35,997 bases of DNA from an uncultured beta proteobacterium (GTDB lineage: Bacteria; Pseudomonadota; Gammaproteobacteria; Burkholderiales; Burkholderiaceae_C), in contig CAIMXF010000185.1 in the NCBI GenBank assembly GCA_903845345.1, positions 1 to 35,997 on the forward strand, in the 5' to 3' direction. Under the pieces are notes generated by a model, which was given only the letters and a program-made list of their open reading frames with translations, did not search any database and was not told the origin of the DNA. Below, piece after piece: positions 16,932 to 31,617 of this stretch. Made by a program: the position numbers and the translations under genes. Numbering within the stretch: the first letter of the stretch is position 1; each line of letters begins with the position of its first letter.

Positions 16932-19445
16932 TCATGCGCCATCCCGGATCGCCGCCATGGTCGGCCGCGCCGTGCAGCGCGCGATGGCCCGGGCCAGGTG
17001 TTCCACGTCGATGGGCTTGGCGACGTAGTCGTCCATGCCGGCGGCCAGGCAGGCCTGCCGATCCTCCTCGAACGCGTTGGCGGTCATCGCGACGATGGGC
17101 AGCGACGCGCGCGCGTCGCCCAGCGCACGGATGGCCTGCGTGGCCTCCACGCCGTCCATGCCGGGCATCTGCAGGTCCATCAGCACCAGGTCGTAGTCGC
17201 CGCGGCGCACCGCCTCGACGGCCAGCTGGCCGTTGGCGACCAGGTGCACGACGTGGCCCATGCGCGTGAGCACGGCGTTGATCAGGATCTGGTTGACGTC
17301 GTTGTCCTCGGCCACGAGGATGCGCAGCGCCGGACGCCCCGGCTCGGCCGCGCCGCTCTCGGCGGCCGCCGGCAGCATCTCGCTGCGCTCCACGACGCGG
17401 CTCGGGATCGAGACGACGAAGCGGCTGCCCAGCCCCGGCGTGCTGGTGGTGGCGATCGTGCCGCCCATCATCTGCACGATCTCGCGCGTGATCGCCAGGC
17501 CCAGACCGCTGCCGCCGTAGCGCCGCATCGTCGTCGAATCGGCCTGCGTGAAGCGGTCGAACAGCGTGGGCATCGCGCTGTCCGGGATGCCGATGCCGGT
17601 GTCGCTGACCGCCAGGTGCAGCGTCAGCGCGCGGCCCGCGCCGGGCTCGATCGCGACGCTCACCTGCACGGTGCCCCGGTCGGTGAACTTGATCGCGTTG
17701 CCCACCAGGTTGAACAGGATCTGCTGGATGCGGATCGCGTCGCCCTGGACCAGCGTGTCCTCGTTCGGCGCGAAGTCGAGCCGCAGCGCCAGGCCCTTGG
17801 CCACCGCGCGCTCGCGCATCAGCGCCACCACGCCCTCGGCGGCCATGCGCACGCTGAACGGCGCCGACGTGAGCTGGAGGTGGCCGGCCTCGATGCGGGA
17901 GACGTCCAGGATGTCGTTGATCAACGCCAGCAGCAGGCGCCCGGAGCTGCCGATCAGCTCGGCGTGGCGGCGCTGCTGCGAGTCGAGCGGCGAATGCAGC
18001 ATCAGCTCGTTGAGGCCCAGCACCGCGTTCAGCGGCGTGCGGATCTCGTGGCTCATCGTCGCGAGGAACTGCGACTTGGCCTGGTTGGCCGCCTCGGCGT
18101 TCGCCTTGGCCTGGGCGAGCTTGCGTTCGGCGGCGGTGACGTCGTGGTACACGCTGACGACGCCGCCCTCGCGGGTGCGGCGGTCGGTCACGTGCACGAC
18201 CAGGCCGTTGCCGAGATCGCGTTCCCAGTCGGCATCGCCGCGCCGGTGCGACGCCGTCCGTTCGGACAGCCACGTCGCGCGCTCGTCGGGCGTCATGTCC
18301 AGCATCACGTTGCTGGCGGACATCTCGGCGAGCTGGCGAAAGGGCACGCCGACGCGAAGACGGTCCCTCACCCATGGGAACATCTGGACGTAGCGCTCGT
18401 TCCAGCGCAGCACGCGATCGGCGCTGTCGCACAGCAGGATGCCGTCCGGGATCACCGCGAGGGCCTGGTCGAGCGTCTCGGCCGAGGCCGCCGCCGCGGC
18501 GCGGGCGTCCGCGAGGCGGGCGAACTGCCATTGCGACAGCACGCCGCCGATCAGCGTGAGCGCGATGAGCGCGAGCGAAGCCGACATGATGACGTTGCGG
18601 TTCTGGTGCCAGGCCAGCAGCGCGTCGGACAGCGGCAGGCTCACCGTGACGCGCAGCGAGCGGTACAGCGTCGGACGCACCGCCACGATCGCCGGCACGT
18701 CGGTGAGCCGCGACGGCGCGAGCACCGGGCCGCCGCGCAGCGCCTCGTCGGGCAGCGGCGGCGCCTGTTCGTGCGCGCGCAGGCCGGCACCGGACGGCAC
18801 CGTCGCCAGCACCCGCCCGTCCTCGCGTTCGAGCGTGACGCCCAGGCCCGGGTTGCCGCCGGCCTGGGCGATGATCGCGGCCAGCGCCGTCATCGGCACC
18901 TCCACCACGGCCAGGACGCGCCGGCCGTCGGGCAGCGCGACGGTGCGCGCGATGTAGACCGACGGCTCGGTGGTGGACTGGCTGATCGCCGGGTCGCTGA
19001 TCGTCAGCTGCGGCACGCCCTGCGCGAACAGGCGCGCGGCGAAGCCCTCGGGCAGGCGCATGCCGTTGCGATCGCTGGAAGGCAGGCTCGCGGCCAGGGT
19101 GTGGCCGCCGGCATCGATCAGGGCGGCGTCGTTGAACAGCAGTTGCCGGTCCTTGAAGGCAGCCATCGCGCGGTGCGCCGCGTCGGCGTCGAGCGGGCCA
19201 TTCGCGCGCCACGCGGGCGCGATCACGTCGGGCAGGCTGGTGAGCTGCAGGTCCAGCGCCAGCAGCGCCCGGTTGAGCTCGGCCTCCGAGGCCGCGGCCG
19301 TCTGCACGACGACCTGCTCGCCGCGCGCGATCGCGTCGCGGCGTTCGGCGGCCACCAGCCACGACGCCGTGACGACCAGCGCCAGCAGCAGCACGCCGGT
19401 GGCCGTCCAGACGATCGCGCTCGAACGACGCAGCGACGCCTTCAT
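16932..19445 (-). CDS. hybrid sensor histidine kinase (periplasmic sensor, PAS, HisKA, HATPase, receiver)
   Basis: ATG at 19445; two TM helices flanking a ~250-aa periplasmic region, PAS ([28 protein letters not shown]), H-box [16 protein letters not shown] boxes, REC with EDNDVNQ and [13 protein letters not shown]. Confidence 0.95.
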
Positions 19446-20509
19446 CGAGCCTCGATTCCGGCGCTGTGGGCCAGGGTGCGGTTCCAGATCGCCGCGCATT
19501 GCGGCCCGCAGCGCTGCAGCCAGCGCGGCAGCACCGTGGAGGCGAAGATCTCGCGCCGCAGGCGTTCGTCGGCGGGCGAGCTCGGCACCAGCGTCATGTG
19601 GCCGGAGCGGCCCGCCTTGCACTCGGGCGCGCCGACGTCGCAGGCGAGCCCGTCGGCGGTCTCGCGCTCGGACTCGTCCCAGATCTCGCGCTCGACGCGC
19701 GGCAGCTCGCGCCTGAGCAGCGCCTTCAGGTCGGTCGGCAACGCGTTCCACGCGGCGCCGTTGGCCGCGAACAGCGACAGCCCCCAGCTGATCGCCATCG
19801 GGTGGATGTACGAGGTGATCCTGTCCAGCCCGACGGTGTTGCCCGACATCGTGCCGGTGATGGCGCAATCGAGCTCGTCGCGATCGAGGTAGGGGATGAT
19901 GTCGCCGAAGCCGGTCGTGACAGGCTTGCCGCCCAGCGCCTCGATCCAGTCGGACTGCGCCGGTCCCGACGTGCGCACGCGCTGCCCCGCGAGGCCCTTG
20001 AGTCCGGCGAACGGCTTCTTGCAATAGACGACCTGGGCCGGATACACGTACACCGCCAGCACCTCGATGCCGTAGCGCTGGCGCATCATGGTCTCGAGAT
20101 ACGGCCGGAACGCCGCGACCGAGCGGCGCATCGTGGACATGTCGGGGTTCAGTCCGGCGAGGTCGGGCGCGGTCAGCTCGGGATCCTTGGTGATGCCGCC
20201 CGACACCGGCGTGTCGGCGAACGGCACCGCGCCGAGCTGCACCAGCGTCAGCACCTCCTGGCTGCGGATGCCGGCGCGGTCGAACGGCACGATCTCCGCG
20301 GTGTAGCGCCCGCCGCTGAGGCGCGCCAGCTCGGTCTCCCAGAACGGCTTCTCATGGCGCGTGAACTGGTTCAGGCTGCCGAGCCCGCCGACGATGCGCA
20401 GGTGCAGCGGCGGCTCCGGCGCCGCCTGGACGCCGCCATCGAGGCAAGCCGCCGCACCGAGCAGCGCGACCAAGGCGCGCCGGACGCGTCTGAGGCCGAG
20501 AGCGTTCAT
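19442..20509 (-). CDS. TRAP transporter DctP-like substrate-binding protein
   Basis: 355 aa with signal peptide; [47 protein letters not shown]...[29 protein letters not shown]. Stop overlaps the kinase start by 4 nt. Confidence 0.88.
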
Positions 20510-22844: not shown

Positions 22845-23297
22845 ATGAGTCAGGCCAGACCACGTCAGTACCTGGGCGCGCTCCGCGCGGCCCTCGCCGC
22901 CGCCAAGGCGGAGAACGCATCCCGCGCCGCCGCGTACCACGCGCTCCCGAACGGCATCAGCTGCAAGATGGACTGGGCCGGCTGGAGCGACCCCTGGTAC
23001 AACGCGACGCCGCGCCAGCAGGCCCTGCTGGACGTCCTGCAGGACCTGCTGGACGGCGGCGAGACCGATGTCCCGATGCTCGCGCTCAAGACCGCGCTGC
23101 GGCTGGAGATCCCGGAGCCCGAGATCCTGCGCAGCCGCGACAACGTCGGCGCCGACGGCGAGCCGGGCTACTTCTTCGACGACGTGCTGCACGCGCTCTA
23201 CCTGCTCGACGCGCAGGACACCGAACGCGTCTTCTACGGCCTGATCGACCGGCTGATGCAGCCGCAGTGCGTCCGCACGGGCCTGACCGCGCGCTGA
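22845..23297 (+). CDS. hypothetical protein, 150 aa
   Basis: In-frame ATG at 22845: MSQARPRQYLGALRAALAAAKAENASRAAAYHALPNGISCKMDWAGWSDPWYNATPRQQALLDVLQDLLDGG...; coherent soluble sequence, no family recognised. Confidence 0.65.
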   Translation: MSQARPRQYLGALRAALAAAKAENASRAAAYHALPNGISCKMDWAGWSDPWYNATPRQQALLDVLQDLLDGGETDVPMLALKTALRLEIPEPEILRSRDNVGADGEPGYFFDDVLHALYLLDAQDTERVFYGLIDRLMQPQCVRTGLTAR

Positions 23298-23383: not shown

Positions 23384-24259
23384 ATGCTGTCGCCGTCGCT
23401 GCGTCCCTGCTTGCGCCTCGTCCTGGCCGCCCTGCTGGCGGCCGGCGCCGCGGCGGCCTGCGCGGCCGCCCCGCGCGCGCCGCTGGTCACGATGCTCGAC
23501 GGCGACGCCACGCTGCTGCGCGACGGCGCGCGCTACGCGCTGGCCGAAGGGGTGCGACTGCAGGCCGGCGACCTGCTCATGACCGCTCCGGGCACCCGCC
23601 TGCTGCGCGTCGAATTTCCCGGCGGGCTGGGCGTCGCCTTCGGCCCGGCCAGCCGCGCGATGCTCGCGCCCGACCTCGGCGACGACATGCGCGGCGGCGT
23701 CTACCTGCTGTCGGGGTGGGCCAAGCTGGTCGCGCCGTCCGGCGTCTCGGGCGCGATCCGCAGCCCGCTCGCCGACACCGATACCACCGCTGGCGCGCTG
23801 ATCCTGTCCGTGCAGGCCGACGGCGCGCAGGCGTTCGCGGAAAGCGGCCCGTCGCGCGTGCAGTCGCGCGTGCCAGACGCACCGGCGCAGGCGCTGAAGT
23901 CCGGCGAGATGCTCGCGCTGCCGGCCGGCGGTGCCAGGCCGGTGCTCAGCAAGGGCGCGTCGCAGGCGTTCGTGCAGGCGATGCCGCGCACCTTCATGGA
24001 TTCGCTGCCGTCGCGGCTGTCCGCCTTCCCCGCCGACGTGCCGCCGCATCGCCTGGGCGACATGAGCTACGCCGACGCCCAGCCCTGGATCGACGCCGAG
24101 GCCCCGCTGCGCCGCGTGTTCGCCGAGCGCTGGCGCCGCCTGGCCGCCGATCCGCAGTTCCGCGCCGGCCTCGTCGCGGGGCTGAAGTCCCATCCCGAAT
24201 GGACGACCGTCCTGTCCTCGCCCGTCCGCGCGCCGCAGGCCGCGGCGTCTCGATACTGA
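23384..24259 (+). CDS. FecR-domain-like exported protein
   Basis: In-frame ATG at 23384 with signal peptide; VTMLDGDATLLRDGARYALAEGVRLQAGDLLMTAPGTRLLRVEFPGGLGVAFGPASRAML...GWAKLVAPSG matches the FecR fold pattern. Confidence 0.75.
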   Translation: MLSPSLRPCLRLVLAALLAAGAAAACAAAPRAPLVTMLDGDATLLRDGARYALAEGVRLQAGDLLMTAPGTRLLRVEFPGGLGVAFGPASRAMLAPDLGDDMRGGVYLLSGWAKLVAPSGVSGAIRSPLADTDTTAGALILSVQADGAQAFAESGPSRVQSRVPDAPAQALKSGEMLALPAGGARPVLSKGASQAFVQAMPRTFMDSLPSRLSAFPADVPPHRLGDMSYADAQPWIDAEAPLRRVFAERWRRLAADPQFRAGLVAGLKSHPEWTTVLSSPVRAPQAAASRY

Positions 24260-24280
24260 CTCCAGCCCACAAGCCAAGCC

Positions 24281-25153
24281 ATGAAACTCCTCGTCAAGTT
24301 CAACCTGGTGTTCCTGCTCGTGTTCCTGGTGGGCCTCGGCGCGTCGAGCCTGATCGCGCGCAACATGCTGCAGAAGGCCGCCAAGGACGACGTGGTCGAC
24401 CGCGCCCGCCTGCTGATGACGGGCGCCAACGGCGTCAGCACCTACACCGCCACGCAGATCAAGCCGCTGCTCGAGACGCAGATGAAGTACACCTTCCTGC
24501 CGCAGTCCATCCCGGCCTACTCGGCGGCCGAGGTGCTCGCGCACCTGCAGAAGACCTATCCCGACTACACGTTCAAGTCGGCCATGCTCAACCCGACCAA
24601 CCCGCGCGACCGGGCGGTGGCGTGGGAAGAGGACATCGTCTCCGCGTTCAGGAAGAACGCCGACCTGAAGGAATTCATCGGCGAGCGCGAGACACCCACC
24701 GGCGCCGCGCTGTACATCGCGCGTCCGATCGTCATCACCAACCCGGCCTGCCTCGCCTGCCACAGCACGCCCGAGGCCGCCCCCAAGACGCTCACCGACA
24801 AGTACGGCCCCGGCAACGGCTTCGGCTGGACGCTCAACGAGCCGCTGGGCGCGCAGGTGGTGTCGGTGCCGCTCACGCTGCCGCTGCAGCAGGCCGACCG
24901 CGCGCTGCTGGTGGTGATGGGCGTGCTCACGGGCGTGTTCGTGCTGATCGGCGCGGCGCTCAACCTGATGCTCTATCGCCTGGTCATCCGGCCGGTGAGC
25001 AGGCTCTCGGGCATCGCCGACCGCGTCTCGCTGGGCGAGTTCGAGGCGCCCGAGTTCGCCGTCCGATCCAACGACGAGATCGGCGTGCTGTCCGAATCGT
25101 TCAACCGCATGCGCACGAGCCTCACGCACGCGATGAAGATGCTCGACTCATGA
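24281..25153 (+). CDS. membrane heme-sensor-like protein (Tll0287/DUF3365-like domain) with HAMP
   Basis: N-terminal TM, periplasmic region with CLACH (CXXCH) and FGWTLNEPLGAQVVSVPL, second TM, HAMP-like RLVIRPVSRLSGIADRVSLGEFEAPEF...DEIGVLSESFNRM. No catalytic output domain. Confidence 0.82.
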   Translation: MKLLVKFNLVFLLVFLVGLGASSLIARNMLQKAAKDDVVDRARLLMTGANGVSTYTATQIKPLLETQMKYTFLPQSIPAYSAAEVLAHLQKTYPDYTFKSAMLNPTNPRDRAVAWEEDIVSAFRKNADLKEFIGERETPTGAALYIARPIVITNPACLACHSTPEAAPKTLTDKYGPGNGFGWTLNEPLGAQVVSVPLTLPLQQADRALLVVMGVLTGVFVLIGAALNLMLYRLVIRPVSRLSGIADRVSLGEFEAPEFAVRSNDEIGVLSESFNRMRTSLTHAMKMLDS

Positions 25154-26637
25154 CCACCCCGCCACCGATCCCCGAGCGCATCGGCAAGTACACGATCTCG
25201 GGCGTCCTCGGCCGCGGCTCGATGGGCACGGTCTACAAGGGCTTCGATCCGCACATCCATCGCGCGGTGGCGATCAAGACGATCCACCGCGAGCTGCTGG
25301 GCGACTCGACCGCCACCGACTCCATGGCCGCGCGCTTCCGCAACGAGGCCAAGGCCGTCGGGCGCATCGCGCATCCGGGCGTCGTGGCCATCTACGACTT
25401 CGGCGAGGACGGCGACGTCACCTTCATCGCCATGGAGTTCGTCGACGGCCGCACGCTCGACGAGATCCTGGCCGTGCCGCAGATGCTGTCCGAGGCCAAC
25501 GTGCTGGCGGTGATGGACCAGCTGCTCGAGGCCCTGGCCGTCGCCCACTCGCAGGGCGTCTGGCACCGCGACATCAAGCCGGCCAACCTCATCGTCACGA
25601 AGGCGGGCCAGGTCAAGCTGACCGACTTCGGCATCGCGCGGCTGGAGGACGCCAACCTCACGCAGGTGTCGTCGATGATCGGCACGCCGGCCTACATGGC
25701 GCCCGAGCAGTTCACCGGCAAGGGTATCGACCACCGCGCCGACATCTTCGCCTGCGGCGTTCTGCTGTACCGCATGCTCACCGGCCGGCGCGCGTTCACC
25801 GGCGCGACGCAGGAGGTGATGTACAAGATCCTCAACGACGAGCCGCCGCCGCCCAGCGTCGTGACCCAGGGCCTGCGGCCAGTGGCGTTCGATGCGGTGG
25901 TCGCCAGGGCGATCGCCAAGAACCCGGCCAACCGCTATCCCGACGCGCTCGCGATGCGCACGGCGCTGCAGGCGCTGTCGCGCACGCCCGCGTCGGCCAC
26001 GGCCAAGGCCACCGTCATCCTGCCGATCCCGCGCGACGGCGAGCAGCCGGTCACCACCAGCGCGGTGTCGCCCAGCGTCGCCTCGCCGAAGGAAGCGCCG
26101 CCGCCGCGCGACCCGGCGCTGTCGTCGGGCGCCAGCGGCTCGTCGTTGGGCGCGACCGGCTGGGATCCGACCGAGCTGGCCCGCATCGAGCGCGCGCTCG
26201 CCACGCACGTGGGCCCGATGGCGCGCGTGATGGTGCGCGAGGCCGCGCGCACGCACGCCGACCCGGCCAGCCTGGCCTCCGCGGTGGGCCGCCACATCGC
26301 CGACGAGACCAAGCGCCACCAGTTCGCCGAGCAGGTGCGCGGCGGCAGCCAGGTGACGCCTGTCGGATCGCACTCCGCCTCATCCGCCAGCGGCGCCACG
26401 CCGATCCCCGCGGCGGTCGCCAGCGCGGCGCCGGTCGGCGATCCGCTGACGGACGACTTCAAGACCCGCGTGGCGCAGATCGTCACCCGCAAGATGGGCC
26501 CGATCGCGCGCGTGATGGTCAGGCGCGCGGCCGACGCGTCGGGCGGCAGCCGGGCGCGCTTCGTGCAGACGGTGCTCGAGGCGATCCCGGAAGCGGATCG
26601 CTGGGCCGTGCAGGGCGAGATCAACAAGCTGGGTTGA
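25150..26637 (+). CDS. serine/threonine protein kinase with duplicated C-terminal domain
   Basis: ATG at 25150 overlaps the upstream stop (ATGA). [33 protein letters not shown] and APEQF kinase motifs; two C-terminal units around [12 protein letters not shown] and [12 protein letters not shown]. Confidence 0.94.
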
Positions 26638-30000: not shown

Positions 30001-30090
30001 GCCTGTCACGCATGAGCAGTAGAACTGGCACGCGCCGTGCATCCCCTTGCGCTGCGATCCAGCCGCATTCGACATCCCGACGGAGCCCCC

Positions 30091-31617
30091 GTGACACTCA
30101 AGATCAAGATCCCGCTGTACTTCGCGGCCGCCCTCGTCGTGTCGCTGCTGGCGGGCCTCGCCGGCCTGTTCGTGGTCACCCATTCGCTCGAAACCTTCGA
30201 GACCGACGTGATGCAGCGCGTGGCCGACGAACGCGCCATCAACGCGATCTCGGGCCACTTCAAGACACAGGTCCAGGAGTGGAAGGACACGCTGCTGCGC
30301 GGCTCCGATGCCGCGTTGCTGCAGAAGCACTGGACGGCGTTCCAGGCCCAGGAAAGGCAGGTCGCCGACGGCGCGCGCGCGCTGCAGGGCAAGCTGGGCG
30401 ACGCCACCGCCAACGCGCAGCTCGACCGCTTCATCGCCGCGCAGCAGAAGATGGCCGCGGGCTATCGCGAAGGCTTCGACAAGTTCAGCGCCGTCGGCTT
30501 CGATTCGTCGGTCGGCGACATGGCGGTGCGCGGCATCGACCGCGAACCGGCCAAGCTGCTCGACGACCTGTCCGCCAGCATCGCGGCGCGCCGCGCCGAC
30601 GTCGCGAGCGCCGCGTCCGCGGCCGGGCGTCGTGCGTTGTGGATCGCGGTCGGCGTGATGATCGCCGCGTGCGGCCTGGGCCTGGGCATCGGCCGCGCGC
30701 TGGGCCGCGGCGTGGTGACGCCGCTGCTGCAGGCCACGCGCGTGGCCAGGGAAGTCGCCGCCGGCGACCTGACGCACCCGGTGGTCGCGCGCGGCGACGA
30801 CGAGACGGCCGCCCTGCTGCGCACGCTCGGCGAAATGCAGTCGCAGTTGCGCGGCATCGTCGGCCGCGTGCGCGACAACGCGCAGCAGGTGGCCACCGCC
30901 AGCGCCGAGATCGCGCAGGGCAACCAGGATCTGAGCCAGCGCACCGAGCAGCAGGCGTCGGCGCTGCAGGTGGCCGCATCGACGATGGAGGAGCTCGGCG
31001 CGACGGCGCAGAACAGCGCCGACAGCGCCAGCAAGGCCAACGAGCTCGCGCTGGAGGCCACGACCGTCGCCGTCAAGGGCGGCACGGTGGTCGAGCGCGT
31101 GGTCACGACGATGCACGGCATCAACGACAGCTCGCGCCGCATCGCCGAGATCATCTCCGTGATCGACGGCATCGCGTTCCAGACCAACATCCTCGCGCTG
31201 AACGCCGCGGTCGAGGCCGCGCGGGCCGGCGAGCAGGGACGCGGCTTCGCGGTGGTGGCCTCGGAAGTGCGCAGCCTGGCCGGCCGCAGCGCCGACGCGG
31301 CGCGCGAGATCAAGACGCTGATCACCGCGAGCGTCGAGCGCGTCGAGGAAGGCTCGCAGCTGGTGGACGAGGCCGGGCGGACGATGCAGGAAATCGTCGC
31401 CGCGATCCGCCGCGTGGGCGCCTTGGTGGAAGACATCAGCGCCGCCAATGCGCAGCAGCGCAGCGGCGTCGGCCAGGTCGGCGAGGAGATCGGCCGCATG
31501 GACCAGGCGACGCAGCAGAACGCCGCGCTGGTCGAGGAAAGCGCGGCCGCGGCCGACAGCCTGCGGCACCAGGCGCAGCAACTGGTCGACGCGGTGGCGG
31601 TCTTCAAGCTCGACTGA
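30091..31617 (+). CDS. methyl-accepting chemotaxis protein
   Basis: Probable GTG start 30091 (VTLKIKIPLYFAAALVVSLLAG); periplasmic domain, second TM, HAMP, signalling hairpin [44 protein letters not shown]. Confidence 0.95.
   Translation: MTLKIKIPLYFAAALVVSLLAGLAGLFVVTHSLETFETDVMQRVADERAINAISGHFKTQVQEWKDTLLRGSDAALLQKHWTAFQAQERQVADGARALQGKLGDATANAQLDRFIAAQQKMAAGYREGFDKFSAVGFDSSVGDMAVRGIDREPAKLLDDLSASIAARRADVASAASAAGRRALWIAVGVMIAACGLGLGIGRALGRGVVTPLLQATRVAREVAAGDLTHPVVARGDDETAALLRTLGEMQSQLRGIVGRVRDNAQQVATASAEIAQGNQDLSQRTEQQASALQVAASTMEELGATAQNSADSASKANELALEATTVAVKGGTVVERVVTTMHGINDSSRRIAEIISVIDGIAFQTNILALNAAVEAARAGEQGRGFAVVASEVRSLAGRSADAAREIKTLITASVERVEEGSQLVDEAGRTMQEIVAAIRRVGALVEDISAANAQQRSGVGQVGEEIGRMDQATQQNAALVEESAAAADSLRHQAQQLVDAVAVFKLD

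Follow-up and report, generated by a model that had tools for sequence, protein, structure and literature searches.

The window analysed here, a 35,997-nucleotide stretch of DNA from an uncultured beta proteobacterium (contig CAIMXF010000185.1), carries on its plus strand three open reading frames (ORFs) in a row, which encode a FecR-like protein, a predicted heme receptor and a Ser/Thr kinase. Their features are as follows.

23384..24259, plus strand: FecR-fold, predicted periplasmic protein, 291 aa; N-terminal signal segment, beta domain and C-terminal helices (from the model and from Pfam FecR matches of relatives)
24281..25153, plus strand: output-less, putative c-heme receptor, 290 aa; TM segment, Tll0287/sCache_heme domain, TM segment, HAMP, short tail
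24374..24871, plus strand: periplasmic Tll0287-like (DUF3365, sCache_heme) domain of the receptor; PF11845, E 3.6e-36
24749..24763, plus strand: CXXCH (CLACH) c-type heme attachment motif, receptor residues 157-161
24971..25126, plus strand: HAMP domain of the receptor; Pfam HAMP, 43.7 bits
25150..26637, plus strand: soluble eukaryotic-like Ser/Thr kinase with C-terminal STAC-like repeats, 495 aa; Pfam Pkinase, 174 bits
about 26176..26334, plus strand: first C-terminal GP (STAC-like) helical repeat of the kinase; profile A1, E 5.4e-19; helical in the model, pLDDT >90
about 26467..26598, plus strand: second C-terminal GP (STAC-like) helical repeat of the kinase; profile A1, E 1.1e-6; four helices in the model

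ORF calling placed the genes at 23384-24259, 24281-25153 and 25150-26637, in agreement with a sequence-only reading of this DNA, which had described three consecutive plus-strand genes, an ATGA overlap between sensor and kinase (seen at 25150-25153) and a FecR-like gene close before the sensor; the spacing of the latter, given there as 22 bp, is 21 bp. Upstream, at 22845-23294, lies the gene of a conserved 150-aa protein with no Pfam match, which the closest relatives (L032, L061) also encode ahead of their FecR-like gene. The source genome is a fragmented assembly of 631 contigs with 6.9% contamination. No paper describing the combination of a FecR-like protein, a heme-HAMP receptor and a kinase was found in the literature searched.

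Residues 32-197 of the receptor matched the Tll0287-like family PF11845 with 124.8 bits, against a curated cut-off of 24.1, and a profile search found this domain in a single copy in the source genome. CLACH falls between two TM-like segments, HAMP covers residues 231-282, and the protein stops 8 residues further on, leaving HAMP as its sole cytosolic part. Thus the earlier description of the middle protein, with CXXCH in its periplasmic part and a HAMP domain without output, was borne out. CXXCH was kept in all 104 aligned receptor relatives, none of which has a periplasmic cysteine other than the two of this motif. HAMP and tail close on a signature, R-x-S-x3-A-M-K-x-L, whose R-x-S-x3-A part had Ser in 94 and Ala in 93 of 95 distinct HAMP-only receptor tails, and relatives fused to histidine kinases did not show this signature.

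According to the main text of a 2026 preprint, sCache_heme proteins bind heme c, and a HAMP-only member without an axial Cys showed tight NO binding in vitro with slow release, unlike a stand-alone member (PMC12889525). Since the 104 receptors have only the CXXCH cysteines in their periplasmic part and this HAMP-only member binds NO, sequence comparison suggests NO or redox sensing as the likeliest input of the receptor. The HAMP-only sCache_heme protein of Pseudomonas azotoformans presented in that text has the same two TM helices, a CXXCH Cache without axial Cys, HAMP and no output; however, the main text names no partner for it, and no Ser/Thr kinase is among the outputs listed there (PMC12889525).

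The kinase had been said to be eukaryotic-like and without an obvious TM helix. No TM-like segment was found in it, and its catalytic motifs are intact (glycine loop, 15 further motif residues not shown here, and APE). Its C-terminus contains a feature absent from the sequence-only reading, two helical repeats of about 50 residues with an invariant Gly-Pro in an hGPxA motif. This GP repeat had no match in Pfam or NCBIfam. Among 269 repeats, 264 had the GP preceded by V, I, L or M, and 247 had Ala at +2. AlphaFold predicts a helical C-terminus for the kinase; in repeat 1 the first helix is long, and in repeat 2 the GP motif separates helix 1 from helix 2.

Searches for relatives of the receptor found them in 48 of 201 genomes of the family, in 29 of 369 genomes of the class and at 53 named loci, and also on plasmids from Caballeronia, Paraburkholderia, Rhodovulum, Skermanella and cyanobacteria. 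Genes at these loci were called by a home-made codon-usage caller and partners were assigned by profile searches; because loci were gathered by similarity to the window receptor, the collection is biased to receptors of that type. A repeat-bearing partner gene adjoins 97 of 108 distinct receptors, the partner being a kinase in 91 cases and a non-kinase effector in 6. The kinase gene lies directly downstream on the same strand at 79 receptors (median gap 16 bp), directly upstream at 6, near upstream at 1 and in convergent orientation at 5. Of the 11 receptors without an adjacent partner, 4 are at contig ends, and some receptors with full flanks had no repeat-bearing gene nearby. The receptor-kinase pair recurs in Acetobacteraceae, Rhodovulum, Skermanella, Edaphobacter and cyanobacteria, and public annotation concurs, with FecR-domain, DUF3365 and Ser/Thr kinase genes in Caballeronia and DUF3365 and kinase genes in Rhodovulum and Skermanella. 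The neighbourhood survey that had been proposed, for conserved adjacency to a kinase and a FecR-like protein, was answered in part: adjacency of receptor and kinase is kept across families, classes and phyla, but adjacency of the FecR-like gene is a feature of Burkholderiales only.

Receptor and GP repeat also occur in the same genomes. Among 201 family genomes, 42 had both, 6 the receptor only, 2 the repeat only and 151 neither (Fisher p 3e-34), and the corresponding numbers among 185 class genomes were 15, 0, 3 and 167 (p 2e-19); these p-values overstate independence because the genomes and loci are related, and they are only indicative. Conservation and co-occurrence together led us to reject chance adjacency of receptor and kinase. 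In the three repeat-only class genomes, a small GP-repeat protein adjoins another receptor (dCache-HAMP or Cache-like) that also ends after HAMP. The six receptor-only family genomes carry divergent receptors, and in two of them (G076, G195) the next gene encodes an MscS-like channel. At L180 and L275:6379-8918, where no GP-repeat gene accompanies the divergent heme-HAMP receptor, the receptor gene precedes one for an MscS-like mechanosensitive channel.

Besides kinases, the GP repeat is fused at the loci compared to class III cyclases (L147, L155, L175, L258), a TIR protein (L273), a HisKA_3 histidine kinase (L079/L187), a caspase-like protein (L081/L189), a small ACT-like protein (L172) and DUF4388/PATAN-like proteins (L240-L242, L257, L260, L274). 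Effector and sensor vary across loci, and the HAMP end and the GP repeat are constant. At L273:1676-3244, a heme-HAMP receptor is followed directly by the TIR-domain protein, possibly an NAD-consuming effector. A SulP/STAS transporter-like protein at L264:4526-6463, a locus with no HAMP receptor among its called genes, ends in a GP repeat, which echoes the known link between STAC and transporters. Kinases with the GP repeat also stand alone, with no adjacent HAMP receptor among the called genes (L265:6010-7455, L266:7011-8111, L271:7109-8644), in genomes that have the heme receptor elsewhere, and a cyclase with the GP repeat likewise stands alone at L263.

A Foldseek search of the kinase repeats against 350,542 chains ranked 5a1q_A (Af1502) first, with a match probability of 0.85 and a TMt of 0.61; with an E-value of 1.7 the match falls short of significance, and four-helix bundles are a frequent fold, and we therefore call the repeat STAC-like, by fold and motif, and the match to Af1502 suggestive. 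The match gains its weight from ranking first of all these chains after the genomic data had already indicated output-less HAMP receptors. A sequence search of the PDB gave no significant match to the repeat and did not recover Af1502. The STAC domain is defined by Af1502, whose gene is translationally coupled to that of the archaeal receptor Af1503, with HAMP as its sole cytosolic part (PMC4834066, PDB 5A1Q), and an LGPx(x)A motif is common to STAC proteins (PMC4834066). Both systems have a receptor whose only cytosolic part is HAMP and a translationally coupled neighbour bearing a small helical domain with an hGPxA-type motif. They differ in that the archaeal STAC protein stands alone, whereas the bacterial system has a heme-Cache sensor and a helical domain, STAC by fold and motif only, that is duplicated and fused to enzymes. 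The SLC5-STAC histidine kinases CbrA and CrbS likewise have STAC between membrane input and kinase output, but in one polypeptide, with a transporter as input and a histidine kinase as output.

The best reading of the module, as far as sequence and fold allow, is that of an output-less HAMP receptor with a STAC-type partner, now equipped with an enzyme output, the STAC identity being tentative. The receptor would act as a split sensor, whose periplasmic c-type heme is probably open to NO or redox change because no cysteine is available as axial ligand. A change at the heme would shift the transmembrane helices and HAMP domain of the dimer, and the HAMP end, having no fused output, would be sensed by the STAC-like repeats that the separately encoded kinase carries at its C-terminus, so that the kinase is recruited or switched. 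We infer heme loading, the identity of the ligand, the direction of the kinase response and its target, like the contact between HAMP and repeats, from comparative evidence, and consider it likely that a redox or NO signal at the heme passes through HAMP to the repeats and hence to the kinase. The sequence-only reading had proposed such a route from heme sensor through HAMP to a separate kinase. Strong support for this route comes from the pair itself, which is conserved in different families, classes and phyla, in both gene orders and in convergent orientation, and from the co-occurring effector domain; that reading had overlooked the repeats and how often the module lies in a type VI secretion context.

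A wider claim, to which we give an even chance, is that output-less HAMP receptors of bacteria generally plug into the GP repeat, by which heme Cache or dCache sensors are served by interchangeable soluble enzymes (Ser/Thr kinase, cyclase, TIR, caspase-like, histidine kinase, PATAN-like) docking through a STAC-like domain. Such proteins would form a modular split-receptor class parallel to two-component systems, one branch of which controls type VI secretion by heme or NO. The module bears on the targets of output-less HAMP receptors and on the function of STAC: Af1503 was described as without a recognisable effector in a CASP11 note (PMC4834066), and later papers call the role of STAC unknown, its deletion having given no obvious growth phenotype (PMC5715377). 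Since the partner is an enzyme with measurable activity, HAMP-to-STAC coupling becomes directly testable, and the newly described heme-Cache family would, if the reading is true, gain a Ser/Thr kinase output.

The likeliest alternative takes the module for a version of the type VI secretion threonine phosphorylation pathway that senses heme, the soluble kinase replacing PpkA and the receptor supplying the signal input that is otherwise missing. PpkA of P. aeruginosa is a membrane-embedded kinase with a periplasmic part. Where a named locus had 7 kb or more to one side, type VI core genes lay close by in 22 of 47 cases, and many Burkholderiales relatives have the module within a type VI secretion cluster, in the position of PpkA. 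The gene order is FecR-like, receptor, kinase, FHA (T6SS_FHA_C), PP2C and then TagF and TssM in Variovorax, and tssM-tagF-receptor-kinase-tssH in Skermanella; in Caballeronia, FecR-receptor-kinase-PP2C lies beside tagF-tssM. Gene sets of the FHA, PP2C, TagF and TssM type make up the threonine phosphorylation pathway around PpkA (PMC5995506), Azoarcus runs this pathway without TagQRST homologues, and the activating cue of type VI secretion kinases has been described as unknown (PMC6423157). The clustering of a Ser/Thr kinase, PP2C phosphatase, FHA and TagF with secretion genes is common to the PpkA-PppA-Fha pathway and to relatives of the module, but the window kinase is soluble, bears STAC-like repeats, has a separate heme receptor and is unlinked to secretion genes in its genome. 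No type VI secretion genes were found at the window locus, and those of the source genome are on other contigs, in a cluster with its own kinase, FHA and PP2C; nor was type VI linkage seen in nearly half of the FecR-bearing loci or in the non-Burkholderiales proteobacterial families sampled. We give this alternative somewhat less than an even chance. Identity of the window kinase with PpkA itself was rejected, as it has no TM segment and its locus lacks FHA, PP2C, TagF and TssM genes. In the type VI-linked relatives, the target is likely the threonine phosphorylation pathway (the FHA protein or TssL). In many Burkholderiales, the module hints that type VI secretion kinases may take their input from heme, redox or NO.

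Receptor and kinase could also share an operon because both serve the same condition, with the receptor signalling elsewhere and the kinase controlled otherwise, e.g. by its own dimerisation. This would accommodate receptors without an adjacent effector and kinases without an adjacent receptor. We consider it unlikely, given that the pairing outlasts changes of gene order, orientation and effector type, and that the shared element is the repeat and not the catalytic domain.

Under the split-sensor reading, the FecR-fold protein would be an addition to the receptor-kinase pair. It has a single N-terminal signal-like hydrophobic segment (residues 12-30) followed by a beta domain, and is by its sequence predicted to be secreted. 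The protein itself had no Pfam match, while 18 of 31 relatives matched Pfam FecR (PF04773). Its model (mean pLDDT 92.4) gave best PDB matches, at E 6e-7 to 1e-5, to the cell-surface-signalling (CSS) domain of PupR (E 6e-7) and the Bacteroidetes anti-sigma BDI_1681, so that the FecR-like label given earlier is right at the level of the fold. The periplasmic FecR beta fold is common to this protein and the FecR/PupR anti-sigma regulators, but the anti-sigma domain that those regulators have in the cytoplasm, at their N-terminus, is missing from sequence and model, and the neighbours examined included neither a sigma factor nor a TonB receptor gene. The gene is conserved in Burkholderiales and confined to them among the receptor loci compared; elsewhere its position is taken by a 155-aa secreted protein, a caspase and peptidoglycan-binding protein or nothing recognisable. 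At L080:1175-2263 and L177:6933-7985, a secreted caspase-domain protein with a peptidoglycan-binding domain is encoded upstream of the receptor, in the place of the FecR-like gene. The proposal of a periplasmic partner therefore holds for Burkholderiales, where the FecR-fold protein is probably accessory, and fails as a general rule; an essential role was rejected outside this order, as receptor and kinase are kept there without it. In a further alternative, sensing or ligand donation would fall to the FecR-fold protein, and the heme protein would only relay or anchor. The conserved place of the FecR-like gene directly upstream in Burkholderiales is in keeping with this alternative, but we consider it very improbable, as the FecR-fold protein is absent from all other lineages with receptor and kinase and unrelated periplasmic proteins occupy its place.

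Two other observations were made in the window. About 3.4 kb downstream of the three-gene module, a methyl-accepting chemotaxis protein is encoded at 30037-31617. On the minus strand, at 16932-20509, ORF translations indicate a hybrid histidine kinase gene adjoining a gene for a TRAP-type solute-binding protein, a pair that is possibly a binding-protein-coupled sensor.
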